A DNA stretch of 64,000 nt from an uncultured beta proteobacterium (GTDB lineage: Bacteria; Pseudomonadota; Gammaproteobacteria; Burkholderiales; Burkholderiaceae): the NCBI GenBank assembly GCA_903871735.1, contig CAIQHU010000060.1, positions 1 through 64,000 on the forward strand, read 5' to 3'. A model generated the notes under the pieces. The model saw nothing but the letters and a program-made list of their open reading frames with translations. It searched no databases and was not told where the DNA came from. The position numbers and the translations under genes were made by a program. This document shows positions 10,107 to 14,302 of the stretch, one piece after another. Each line of letters starts with the position of its first letter. The first letter of the stretch is position 1.

Positions 10107-10136
10107 TTCCTTATTTCGGTATGATCCAATCCAGAA

Positions 10137-10153
10137 TGCACCATAATGGTGCA
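10137..10153 (+). promoter_or_regulatory. NtrC-binding site upstream of glnA
   Basis: TGCACCATAATGGTGCA is a perfect match to the classical NtrC consensus TGCACC-RWWWT-GGTGCA. It lies at the heart of a longer perfect palindrome (10131-10159, 12-bp arms, 5-bp centre) centred ~92 bp before the glnA start. ntrC itself lies two genes downstream, so the circuit is probably autoregulated. Confidence 0.85.
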
Positions 10154-10159
10154 TTCTGG

Positions 10160-10189
10160 TTGTTTCAAGAGCCCTTAATTTGTTCTAAT
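10160..10189 (+). promoter_or_regulatory. Candidate sigma-70 promoter of glnA
   Basis: TTGTTT (10160-10165) and TCTAAT (10184-10189) lie 18 bp apart. The -10 matches 5/6 and the -35 only 3/6, as expected for an activator-dependent promoter. The NtrC site would be centred near -51. No GG-N10-GC sigma-54 element with correct spacing was found between the NtrC site and glnA. Confidence 0.4.
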
Positions 10190-10199
10190 CAAATTAAGG
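10173..10199. repeat. Inverted repeat in the glnA leader/promoter
   Basis: Perfect 10-bp arms CCTTAATTTG / CAAATTAAGG around a 7-nt centre. It overlaps the candidate -10 element. It could be an operator or a weak AT-rich hairpin ending the upstream operon. It lacks an immediate T-run, so a terminator is less likely. Confidence 0.6.
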
Positions 10200-10236: not shown

Positions 10237-11652
10237 ATGAGTAAAGCCGTTGCTGACGTATTCAAGATGGTGAAGGACAAGGAAATTACTTTTATTGATT
10301 TTCGTTTCACTGACACCAAGGGTAAGGAACAGCATGTTTCTGTGCCTGTATCTGTTTTTGATGAAGATAAATTTGAAAACGGTCATGCCTTTGATGGTTC
10401 TTCAATTGCTGGCTGGAAGGGGATTGAAGCTTCCGATATGTTATTGATGCCTGATCCAAGTACGGCTTATATTGATCCGTTTTATGAAGAGCCAACTTTA
10501 GTTTTAACTTGTGATGTCGTTGAGCCGACAGATGGTAAAGGCTATGATCGGGACCCACGATCGATTGCAAAGCGTTGTGAAGCTTATTTAAAGAGTACTG
10601 GCCTTGGTGATACAGCTTACTTTGGTCCTGAGCCCGAATTCTTTATTTTTGATGGTGTGCGCTGGAATACAGACATGCAGGGATCATTTGTAAAAATTGA
10701 TTCTGAAGAGGCTCCTTGGTCTTCTGGAATGGAATTTGAAGGGGGTAACACGGGTCATCGTCCGGGCAAGAAGGGTGGGTATTTCCCCGTTGCGCCGCTT
10801 GACACTTTTCAAGATATGCGTTCTGAGATGTGTTTACTGTTAGAGTCCGTTGGTATACCCGTTGAGGTGCACCATCATGAAGTCGCTGGACAAGGCCAAA
10901 ATGAGCTCGGCACGAAGTTTAGTACATTAGTGCAACGGGCTGACTGGACTATTTTACAAAAGTATATCGTCCACAATGTAGCCCATGCTTATGGCAAGAC
11001 AGCGACCTTTATGCCTAAGCCAATTGTTGGTGATAACGGCTCCGGTATGCACGTTCATCAATCTGTTTGGAAAGACGGCATTAATTTATTTGCAGGTAAT
11101 GGTTACGCTGGTTTGTCTGAGTTTGCGCTGTACTATATTGGCGGGATTATCAAGCACGCCCGAGCCTTAAATGCGATCACTAATCCTGGTACGAATTCCT
11201 ACAAGCGTTTAGTGCCTGGTTTTGAAGCGCCGGTCAAATTAGCCTATTCAGCGCGCAACCGCTCTGCCTCGATTCGTATTCCGTATGTTGCTAATCCCAA
11301 AGGACGGCGGATTGAGACGCGTTTCCCAGATCCATTAGCCAATCCCTATTTAGCCTTCTCAGCCTTACTCATGGCTGGTCTCGATGGTGTTCAAAACAAG
11401 ATTCATCCTGGAGAGGCGGCTGATAAGAATCTATATGATTTACCTCCAGAAGAAGACGCGAAGATCCCAACGGTATGCAGTAGCTTAGACCAAGCTTTGG
11501 AGCATTTAGATAAGGACCGGGAGTTCTTGACTCGCGGTGGCGTCTTTACGGACTCCATGTTGGATGCTTATATATCTCTCAAGATGGAAGAGGTCACTCG
11601 TTTTCGAATGACTACCCATCCGATTGAGTTTGAAATGTATTATTCACTTTAA
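10237..11652 (+). CDS. glnA: Glutamine synthetase, type I
   Basis: Makes glutamine from glutamate, ammonia and ATP in the cytoplasm. It forms dodecamers and is the main ammonium-assimilating enzyme. The sequence shows the N-terminal beta-grasp ([10 protein letters not shown]), the catalytic FDGSSIAGW and PEPEFF-type motifs, [23 protein letters not shown], and the adenylylation site NLYDLPPEE with Tyr400. It is therefore a GSI-beta enzyme open to GlnE control. Length 471 is standard. AGGAG at 10226-10230 gives a 6-nt spacer to ATG 10237. A perfect NtrC operator lies upstream, and ntrB follows 17 bp after the stop, so glnA-ntrB-ntrC is likely one nitrogen-responsive operon. Confidence 0.98.
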
Positions 11653-11669: not shown

Positions 11670-12812
11670 ATGCGCATTTTACAAATTGGGGCAGCTAAGG
11701 CTGCCCTTTTTAATCCCCAAGAGGCTCTAGACCAGTTGCCCAATTCGATTCTTATCCTTGATAAGACATTAGGGACTGTGATTTACGCGAATACGGCAGC
11801 TGAGGTTTCCTTAAAAATTTCCCGAAAAAGTCTGATGGGGGTTGAACTAAGGGATGTTTTTGGTGAAAATTCAGTTCTGGAAGATTTAATTATCCAGTTT
11901 AAATTAGATGGTATGACCCAGCGCATTGATTTACTTTTAGGTTTGGGTCCACTGCGTGCAGATCAAAAAGAGTTTTTAGCCTATTTGATTCTTGCGCCCC
12001 TTGAGGGTGCTGATTTAGTGATTCTTGAATGGTTTGAAATTGATCAGCAAAACAAGAGTGCTCGCGAAGAGCGTTTAATCATGCAGGCGCGTGCCAATAA
12101 AGAGTTGATGCGTAATTTAGCGCACGAGATCAAAAATCCTTTGGGCGGTATCCGAGGAGCTGCGCAATTACTAGACTATGAATTACCAGATCCTTCTTTG
12201 AAGGAATATACCAAGGTCATGATTAAAGAGGTCGATCGTTTACAAACCTTAGTTGATCGCTTATTAGCTCCCCATAAACGCCAGAAGCAAATCGCCCAAG
12301 TCAATATTCATGAAGTCCTAGAGCGAGTCCGAAGTGTCGTTCTAGCTGAGTTTGCACAAGGCTTAAGTATTACGCGTTTTTATGACGTTAGTTTGCCCGA
12401 GATCATTGGCGATAAAGAAATTTTGATACAAGCTTTACTCAATATTGTACATAATGCAGCTCAAATTTTAGAAGAACGCATTGCCCATGCAGATGCATTA
12501 ATCCGTTTAGAGACTAGTATTTCACGCAACATTACCATTGCAAGAAAGCGCTTTAAGTTAGCTTTAAATGTCTACATTATTGATAATGGACCAGGCATTT
12601 CTGCGGACATCATAGACCATATCTTTTTGCCTTTAGTTTCAGGGCGACCATCAGGGAGTGGGCTTGGTTTAACTTTAGCGCAATCATTTATTCAAATGCA
12701 CGGTGGTTTTATTAGTGTTCAGAGTGAACCTGGTAAGACGATCTTTCATATTTTAATTCCGTACACATCACCAGATTTTTTGAATAATATTGAACTTAGG
12801 GGTCAACCATGA
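11670..12812 (+). CDS. ntrB: Nitrogen regulation sensor histidine kinase NtrB
   Basis: The soluble sensor kinase that phosphorylates NtrC under nitrogen limitation, normally controlled by PII. It has no membrane segment. Residues ~18-125 form a PAS-like domain (ILILDKTLGTVIYAN). The H-box AHEIKNPLGG carries the phospho-accepting His152. The ATPase region has an N-box (NIVHNAAQIL), DNGPG and GSGLGL. Length 380 is near the usual ~350-390. It is 17 bp after glnA and overlaps ntrC by 4 bp (ATGA), giving translational coupling that matches the classical glnA-glnL-glnG layout. Confidence 0.95.
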   Translation: MRILQIGAAKAALFNPQEALDQLPNSILILDKTLGTVIYANTAAEVSLKISRKSLMGVELRDVFGENSVLEDLIIQFKLDGMTQRIDLLLGLGPLRADQKEFLAYLILAPLEGADLVILEWFEIDQQNKSAREERLIMQARANKELMRNLAHEIKNPLGGIRGAAQLLDYELPDPSLKEYTKVMIKEVDRLQTLVDRLLAPHKRQKQIAQVNIHEVLERVRSVVLAEFAQGLSITRFYDVSLPEIIGDKEILIQALLNIVHNAAQILEERIAHADALIRLETSISRNITIARKRFKLALNVYIIDNGPGISADIIDHIFLPLVSGRPSGSGLGLTLAQSFIQMHGGFISVQSEPGKTIFHILIPYTSPDFLNNIELRGQP

Positions 12813-14302
12813 AAGCAGTTTGGATCGTCGATGATGATCAATCAATTCGTTGGGTCTTAGAAAAATCACTCACTAGGCAGGCGATTCCCTTTAAGAGTTT
12901 TTCTAATCCAGATGATGTTTTAGATATGCTTGAAAAAGAAAAGCCCCAGTTGATTATTTCGGATATTCGGATGCCCAAGGGTAGTGGTATTACATTACTG
13001 CAGCAGATTAAGCAAGATTACCCAAAAATTCCAGTGATTGTGATGACAGCTTATTCCGATATGGACTCTGCTGTAGCAGCATTTCAGGGGGGAGCCTTTG
13101 AATATATTACGAAGCCATTTGATATAGCTGATTTGATGGAATTAATTCAACGTGCGATTAGTGAGAGCATGAGTGCAGAGCAAATTAAGACACAGTTTGC
13201 GCCGCAGGTCGCAGCAAAAAATAGTGCTGTGCCTGAGTTAATTGGTCAGGCACCTGCGATGCAAGAAGTTTTTAGAGCGATTGGTCGACTGTCTCAGTCA
13301 AGTGCTACCGTCTTAATTACTGGTGAATCTGGCACTGGTAAAGAGTTAGTTGCTAGGGCATTACACCGGCATAGTGCCCGGGTTTCTGGCCCATTTGTCG
13401 AAATGAATTTAGCCGCTACCCCAAAAGAATTAATTGAGGCCGAGTTATTTGGCTACGAGCGAGGCGCTTTTGCAAATGCAACCGCTAGAAGGCGTGGTAA
13501 TTTTGAATTAGCCGATGGTGGCACTTTATTTTTGGATGAAATTGCCGACATGCCATTGGAGTCACAAAGTTCGTTGTTAAGGCTCTTAGAGGACGGAAAA
13601 TTTTATCGGATTGGGGGTCAGGAGCTTTTATCTGCAAATGTTCGAATTGTTGCTTCGAGTAATCAAAACTTGGAGATGTTAGTGTCGAAGGGATCTTTTC
13701 GGCAAGACTTATTTCACCGCTTAAATGTAATTCGCTTAACCTTACCAGCTTTGCGTGAGCGAGTTGAGGACATTCATTTATTAGCGCAACATTTTTTATT
13801 AGCCAGTGCTCGGCAAATTGGGGTGAAGACCAAGTTTTTGTTGCCTGAGACGGTCGAACTATTGGGTCAAATGGCCTTTCCTGGCAATGTGCGCCAATTA
13901 CAAAGTATCTGTCATTGGTTAACTGTGATGGTTTCTTCAGTACAAATAGCACCTAAAGATTTACCACGTAATATTCAACAGTTTGTAAATACTGCGGTTG
14001 ATGAAGATGCCATTTCAACGACGCTTGCACCGGAGTCTAATTTAGGAAGTTTAGTGAATGTTGGTTTGAGTTTGGGGCATTCGAACAACTCTTCTTGGGA
14101 GGCAACTTTAGCGATCATTGCAAAGAAGATGCTAGAAGATGGTAAGGCAGAGGTTTATCAACACTTACTCGGTTCTTTTGAAAAGTCCGTGATTTCTGCA
14201 GCACTTGAGATTACGCGTGGGCGCAAGGTGGAGGCGGCTGAGCGATTAGGGATTGGTCGCAACACGATTACCCGCAAATTACAAGAGCTAGGGATTGATT
14301 AG
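12809..14302 (+). CDS. ntrC: Nitrogen response regulator NtrC with variant GAFTGA loop
   Basis: A receiver-AAA+-Fis regulator of nitrogen genes. The receiver domain has acidic DDD at 8-10, phospho-acceptor D52, T80 and K102. The AAA+ domain has Walker A GESGTGKE (172-179) and Walker B TLFLDEI (239-245). The C-terminal helix-turn-helix is EAAERLGIGRNTITRK. The sigma-54 contact loop, normally GAFTGA, reads GAFANA (219-224; 13463-13480), changing the key Thr and Gly. Family knowledge says this loop is essential for sigma-54 remodelling, and Rhodobacter capsulatus NtrC, which lacks an intact loop, works with sigma-70. I therefore infer a sigma-54-independent activator. Its stop overlaps the convergent xth stop by 4 bp. 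Confidence 0.95.
   Translation: MKAVWIVDDDQSIRWVLEKSLTRQAIPFKSFSNPDDVLDMLEKEKPQLIISDIRMPKGSGITLLQQIKQDYPKIPVIVMTAYSDMDSAVAAFQGGAFEYITKPFDIADLMELIQRAISESMSAEQIKTQFAPQVAAKNSAVPELIGQAPAMQEVFRAIGRLSQSSATVLITGESGTGKELVARALHRHSARVSGPFVEMNLAATPKELIEAELFGYERGAFANATARRRGNFELADGGTLFLDEIADMPLESQSSLLRLLEDGKFYRIGGQELLSANVRIVASSNQNLEMLVSKGSFRQDLFHRLNVIRLTLPALRERVEDIHLLAQHFLLASARQIGVKTKFLLPETVELLGQMAFPGNVRQLQSICHWLTVMVSSVQIAPKDLPRNIQQFVNTAVDEDAISTTLAPESNLGSLVNVGLSLGHSNNSSWEATLAIIAKKMLEDGKAEVYQHLLGSFEKSVISAALEITRGRKVEAAERLGIGRNTITRKLQELGID

Follow-up and report, generated by a model that had tools for sequence, protein, structure and literature searches.

The glnA-ntrB-ntrC Operon and the Altered Loop of NtrC

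The window, meaning the whole stretch of 64,000 nucleotides that was analysed, contains three genes on the forward strand arranged as a glnA-ntrB-ntrC operon. The first, glnA (10237–11652), encodes a type I glutamine synthetase (TIGR00653, 674.4 bits, cut-off 429.15), the second, ntrB (11670–12812), the histidine kinase NR(II) (NF008293, 286.5 bits, cut-off 240), and the third, ntrC (12809–14302), a response regulator of 497 aa. The NtrC protein scored 599.9 bits against TIGR01818 (NCBIfam), above the cut-off of 558.6, and its Pfam domains are a receiver, Sigma54_activat, a lid, and a Fis-type HTH; the adjoining glnA and ntrB are a further feature of membership in the NtrC family. Residues D8, D9, D52, T80, K102, K178 (Walker A), D243 and E244 (Walker B, 13535–13540), R298, R304, and R362 are all intact. 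These data agree with the original prediction, which described an otherwise complete NtrC, with D52, both Walker motifs, and the HTH, encoded in such an operon. An Rfam scan of the window returned no match.

The L1 loop, which reads GAFTGA in sigma-54 activators, is replaced by GAFANA (residues 219–224; T222A and G223N), as disclosed by the sequence and by alignment with 16 outgroup NtrCs. The codons at 13463–13480, GGC GCT TTT GCA AAT GCA, bear out the predicted Thr-to-Ala and Gly-to-Asn changes, and a reading slip is ruled out, as the five loci of the window clade (L077–L081) read GAFANA four times and GAFANS once. The record containing one of them, L081, is titled Thermoflexus hugenholtzii; its NtrC is 99% identical to the window NtrC, and the title misfits the contig. 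The window protein has the features of a sigma-70-type NtrC, in that GAFTGA is absent while the receiver and HTH are retained, with the loop substituted rather than deleted.

Loop States among Relatives

The protein scan set comprised the best 80 of 552 confirmed relatives, five of them from the window clade. GAFTGA was present in all 75 loci outside that clade (72 assigned by script and 3 by reading). A survey of 61 genomes, drawn from a larger group, covered the genus, which we take to be Polynucleobacter; the window genome (G000) has 2.76 Mb in 197 contigs and is 99.58% complete and 2.21% contaminated, and loci L079 and L081 of the 80-locus set come from the records listed here as G014 and G024. 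NtrC was found in 57 of the 61 genomes; the four misses (G008, G050, G051, and G056) are each 78–84% complete.

The altered loops are diverse. Among the 38 NtrC-bearing genomes without rpoN, the gene for sigma-54, the loop reads GAFPGA in 29, AQFGNT in 3, GAFANA in 2, GAFQGA in 2, GAFNGA in 1, and GAFLGA in 1, while the 19 with rpoN have GAFTGA (8), GAFPGA (7), GAFANA (2), GAFQGA (1), or GAVPNA (1). GAFTGA is thus kept in 8/19 genomes with rpoN versus 0/38 without it, counts that are not independent because the genomes are related. Both residues 222 and 223 are changed in all five window-clade genomes. In the main clade, residue 222 is changed and Gly-223 kept (41/41), with Pro at this fourth loop position in 36 of the 41, and the three AQFGNT proteins are changed in yet another manner. 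That different residues changed in each group fits separate losses of the loop. On a tree of GlnA and NtrB, made by a quick method and with several deep forks lacking support, at least two changes are needed to explain the loop state, and seven to explain the presence of rpoN. The best explanation for these patterns would be that, on at least two occasions within the genus, sigma-54 lost its part in nitrogen control. Within the window clade, G042 (69% identity, 99% complete) has GAFANA, no rpoN match, and a single enhancer-binding protein (EBP), and G014 (93% complete) likewise has GAFANA with no rpoN match.

Selection on the Altered NtrCs

Identity to the outgroup in the AAA+ core and the receiver, respectively, was 89.0% and 70.8% for the GAFTGA group, 66.8% and 62.2% for the window clade, 68.5% and 73.1% for the AQFGNT group, and 78.9% and 73.7% for the other altered NtrCs. 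Expressed as a ratio of AAA+ to receiver divergence, the GAFTGA proteins have a median of 0.36 (maximum 0.57) and the altered groups 0.81–1.17 (lowest single value 0.66). The AAA+ core of the altered proteins has lost an extra constraint, apparently one imposed by work with sigma-54.

The altered NtrCs are nevertheless under strong purifying selection. In nine pairs, omega was 0.007–0.06 for the whole gene and 0–0.021 for the core, some pairs having dS above 1; one GAFTGA pair gave 0.024 and 0.008. The ntrC frame is free of stops in 56 of 57 genomes, and the tested receiver residues are retained in every NtrC group. The remaining frame, L066 in G022, contains one TAA, which could be a recent loss or a sequencing error. 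The Walker A Lys is kept in 57/57 genus NtrCs, which permits, without demonstrating, the use of ATP binding. In 22 of the 41 main-clade proteins and none of the window clade, the Walker B Asp (residue 243 in window numbering) is replaced by Gly with the Glu kept; these proteins have likely lost ATP hydrolysis.

RpoN and the Flagellar Genes

Absence of rpoN from the window genome was considered and rejected, as a match was found beside flhB with all three Pfam sigma-54 domains (activator-interacting, core-binding, and DNA-binding). It is unlikely to be contamination because the near twin G024 carries it at 99% identity. Across the genus, rpoN occurs in 22 of 61 genomes (18 of the 51 of good quality), and in the wider family in 115 of 150 genomes and 17 of 25 genera. 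Its position differs between groups. All four GAFTGA-clade genomes read have rpoN between lptB and hpf, as do the three outgroup loci read. The slot contains no rpoN in 15 of 15 further genomes, namely G053 and 14 whose loops are altered, the window genome among them. In the window genome the gene is missing from this ancestral slot and stands beside flhB, which it also adjoins in G045.

In the window genome a second EBP gene, whose product has the loop GSFTGA, lies between fliE and fliF, with a sensor-kinase-like ORF in between. A second EBP (E 1e-40) was present in 10 of the 11 genomes combining rpoN with an altered NtrC, the miss being G024 (93% complete), and in 0 of the 39 genus genomes without rpoN at the same threshold; in the 38 NtrC-bearing genomes without rpoN, no EBP besides NtrC was found. 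The loop of the second EBP was G[AS]FTGA in all 11 proteins read, from those ten genomes and G050. Nine of the 11 genomes with rpoN and an altered NtrC gave a match for FlhA, the exceptions being G024 and G045. Five genomes without rpoN also have FlhA, which counts against a simple rule joining rpoN to flagella. Wherever rpoN, flhA, and the EBP share a contig (eight genomes: G009, G011, G017, G030, G035, G050, G058, and G060), they lie within about 31 kb; in the window genome they are on separate contigs.

Each of the 11 flagellar EBP loci read contains exactly one TGGCAY-N6-TGCW (-24/-12) element. In the window genome it falls within the EBP coding sequence, toward the 3' end and some 200 bp ahead of fliE, so that coding constraint may add to its conservation. 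A single site scored at least 10 in the two flagellar stretches read in this genome. In G009, six of the 38 matches to the -24/-12 pattern fall in a 60-kb flagellar block where 1.14 are expected, the block having been picked post hoc; genome-wide, the matches listed are mostly chance-like. RpoN has apparently been kept for flagella in the window genome.

Import of rpoN from outside the genus was unsupported: 20 genus RpoNs group apart from 7 family ones (100/100), in a tree that lacked the RpoN of G048 and sampled donors within the family only. The RpoNs of G035 and G017 are mutually nearest although GlnA and NtrB place their hosts far from each other, a hint of transfer within the genus. Branch lengths of these two rpoN genes (L224 and L226) were 0 and 0.083. 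Together, the sequences suggest that rpoN may travel with the flagellar block within the genus.

The DNA Upstream of glnA

Upstream DNA of glnA was read in 57 genus genomes: all 8 with GAFTGA, 48 of the 49 with altered loops (G021 gave no glnA), and G051, in which NtrC was not found. A -24/-12 matrix was built from 48 outgroup sites, for which the 99th percentile of shuffled DNA was 5.4 bits. Seven of the eight GAFTGA genomes scored 12.8–12.9 bits before glnA, the eighth, G053, reaching -4.2. None of the 49 upstream regions outside the GAFTGA genomes contained the element (best score at most 2.9), and the best score in the window genome was -1.6; among outgroup loci, 48/55 have it. The original prediction proposed a genome search for rpoN, and took an rpoN gene together with a mapped -24/-12 glnA promoter, activated by this NtrC with sigma-54, as contrary evidence. 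The rpoN half of that pair is present, and no -24/-12 element was found at glnA.

The main-clade upstream regions, e.g., L187 (G025) and L202 (G037), have a conserved dyad, (A/G)GGCAT-N6-TGCC, at about -80. It sits near the -24/-12 position of the GAFTGA genomes, scores at most 2.9, and also occurs where rpoN is missing; it may be a -24/-12 relic put to another use.

Upstream of glnA in the window lies a perfect dyad with 14-bp arms (10131–10159) that contains an NtrC-type site, TGCACCATAATGGTGCA (10137–10153). The sequence TGCACCANNNTGGTGCA has a single match in the 2.76 Mb of the window genome and occurs in 3 of 61 genomes, once each and always upstream of glnA. The looser pattern TGCAC-N7-GTGCA has four sites in the whole window genome and none in the reversed control; by a rough estimate, chance alone would give two to three, which leaves weight only to the exact 14-letter form and to its position. 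Such a dyad was found upstream of glnA in all clades, and its core fits the NtrC consensus in every one, GAFTGA clades included. In 40/40 main-clade upstream regions there is a further NtrC-type site (at most one mismatch), about 50 bp upstream in those compared. Another NtrC-type dyad, with 11-bp arms, was observed in the window genome at L211 2068–2084 (contig C70, 5267–5283) and likewise in G024 (L214). It lies 78 bp ahead of a gene for a circularly permuted ATP-grasp protein (PF14403), which is followed by an Alpha-E gene (PF04168), and is likely a further NtrC target.

Positioned 30 bp past the NtrC-type site is a candidate -10 hexamer, TCTAAT, on the forward strand (10184–10189), preceded by TGT as in an extended -10. 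With a -10-like hexamer defined as a match of at least 4/6 to TATAAT, the distance from the glnA-proximal site is 30 bp in 46 of 49 regions, 29 bp in G010 and G014, and 31 bp in G022. The main-clade hexamer, TAAATT, is only a 4/6 match. The seven GAFTGA genomes with the -24/-12 element also carry TAAAAT at 30 bp (four genomes) or 31 bp (three), and no -10-like hexamer stood at 30 bp in the 51 outgroup regions having a site. When the DNA of each clade was rotated independently, an arrangement shared at any offset arose in 1 of 20,000 trials with six clades, 86 with three, and 2800 with two. The genus-wide arrangement is thus unlikely to be due to chance, and the window and main clades alone are insufficient proof. 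At the candidate promoter no good -35 was seen by eye, and a sigma-70 promoter scan gave none on the glnA strand.

A second dyad (10173–10199) overlaps the candidate -10. A terminator scan of the DNA before glnA scored both dyads as terminator-like (2 found versus 0.1 expected). At its centre, TTTGTTNTAAT, the second is conserved across seven distinct sequences of the clade, with weaker conservation in the arms; dyad arms covary in part among G000, G024, and G045.

Proposed Mode of Action

We consider it probable that the window NtrC remains functional in nitrogen control but has ceased to activate sigma-54 and acts at a sigma-70 glnA promoter, with sigma-54 left for flagella. Most likely, NtrB would phosphorylate NtrC, which would bind the dyad upstream of glnA and act from a fixed 30 bp before the -10 hexamer, placing the centre of its site near -50 of the predicted start. 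The promoter would be read by the sigma-70 holoenzyme, with NtrC probably touching the polymerase directly as a contact activator, rather than remodelling sigma-54 from a distance, while sigma-54 in this genome would serve the flagellar genes through the separate EBP with its intact GSFTGA. The original prediction that the lineage may have switched its nitrogen control to sigma-70 stands as regards the departure from sigma-54, which is supported by the 38 relatives that keep NtrC without rpoN, the 49 upstream regions lacking -24/-12, purifying selection, and the fixed spacing. The use of sigma-70 itself at glnA we infer by exclusion, and we likewise infer activation rather than repression, direct contact, and the flagellar service of RpoN.

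NtrC could instead be uncoupled from sigma-54 and act chiefly by repressing, or occluding, a sigma-70 glnA promoter. E. coli NtrC represses or occludes at glnAp1, and both the dyad that immediately precedes the candidate promoter in all clades and the additional main-clade site could be read in this manner. However, a 17-bp site centred near -50 does not cover the -35 and -10, a constant spacing of 30 bp between site and promoter is typical of contact activation, and glnA expression should increase when nitrogen is limiting; we regard repression as unlikely.

Somewhat more doubtful still is a reading of the two dyads as tandem terminators for the gene that precedes glnA, with the fixed spacing incidental. 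Both satisfy the terminator scan, and their partly covarying arms would suit such a role, but the core agrees with the NtrC consensus in each clade, those with GAFTGA included, a further site (11-bp arms) stands before a different operon, and the second dyad is better conserved at its centre than in its arms.

That the altered loop still activates sigma-54 through a co-adapted RpoN is very improbable: the window genome does have an rpoN with all three domains, but its second EBP keeps GSFTGA, GAFANA also occurs with no rpoN match in G042 and G014, and glnA has no -24/-12 element. Least credible is an NtrC in decay and being lost, since the missing Walker B Asp in 22/57 proteins and the TAA of G022 are opposed, as a general account, by the intact frames, low omega values, and retained receiver residues.

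A Possible Stepwise Handover

G053 (80% complete) appears to represent a half-way form. It has GAFTGA without the glnA -24/-12 element, and its rpoN is outside the lptB slot, beside a FliL-family ORF. TAAAAT lies 29 bp from its full dyad and, by eye, TAAATT 30 bp from a half dyad. Its AAA+/receiver divergence ratio, 0.57, falls between those of the other GAFTGA genomes and the altered ones. G053 joins the main clade with a support of 99, its exact place being unsupported (63) and fewer than half of its tree columns filled. Provided that the assembly is correct, the change at the promoter preceded that in the loop.

We tentatively propose a stepwise handover from sigma-54 to sigma-70 that was repeated at least twice. 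A sigma-70 promoter would have been added about 30 bp after the NtrC site, beside the old -24/-12 element, as in the GAFTGA clade; the -24/-12 element and the housekeeping-slot rpoN would then have been lost with the loop still intact, as in G053; loop decay would have followed, and then loss of the Walker B Asp in one subclade. The outcome could be the conversion of an ATP-driven remodeller into an ordinary contact activator, with sigma-54 left only in a movable flagellar block.

The escape of an EBP from its all-or-none need for sigma-54 poses an evolutionary puzzle, because loop, promoter, and sigma factor would have to change together. Close relatives within the genus seem to represent ancestral, dual, half-way, and completed states, and the flagellar EBP provides an internal control in the same cell. 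One could therefore test directly in which order the steps occurred, whether ATP hydrolysis is needed, and which surface makes the contact. An NtrC annotation, moreover, does not imply a sigma-54 regulon, because a loop-altered NtrC passes the profile cut-off.

Comparison with Known Systems

As stated in the original prediction and in the available portion of PMC10274813, the NtrC of Rhodobacter capsulatus, one of the closest parallels, has no GAFTGA loop and activates via sigma-70; it is reported in PMC10274813 to need ATP binding rather than hydrolysis. The same source portion describes a Caulobacter NtrC that has no GAFTGA and is needed for glnA expression, in a cell whose other EBPs keep GAFTGA; both proteins are loop deletions with sigma-70 targets (PMC10274813). 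The window NtrC resembles both in its missing GAFTGA and the latter also in the coexistence of an altered NtrC loop with another EBP whose loop is intact. It differs in that the L1 loop is deleted in R. capsulatus, and eight residues in Caulobacter, whereas here the length is kept and residues are substituted; the R. capsulatus case also differs from the present betaproteobacterial genus, with its repeated loss and intermediates. Caulobacter NtrC, as far as that source portion describes it, needs its Walker A and B residues, whereas 22/57 genus NtrCs lack the Walker B Asp, which the window protein keeps.

In TyrR, DhaR, HupR, VpsR, and other EBP relatives, a defective GAFTGA goes with lost use of sigma-54, and Pro is noted as a preferred substitution at loop position 4 (Francke et al. 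2011, PMC3162934, in the portion available). The genus shares with this group the loop defect accompanying sigma-54 loss and, in the main clade, the Pro at position 4; the regulons are different. Polynucleobacter is not named in the available portion of the main text of that paper, and a title and abstract search, with most subscription journals outside its range, found no account of a sigma-54-uncoupled NtrC in Polynucleobacter. Relative to the known cases, the present one differs in that residues are substituted rather than deleted, the hosts are betaproteobacteria, the loss recurred within one genus, and graded intermediates occur.
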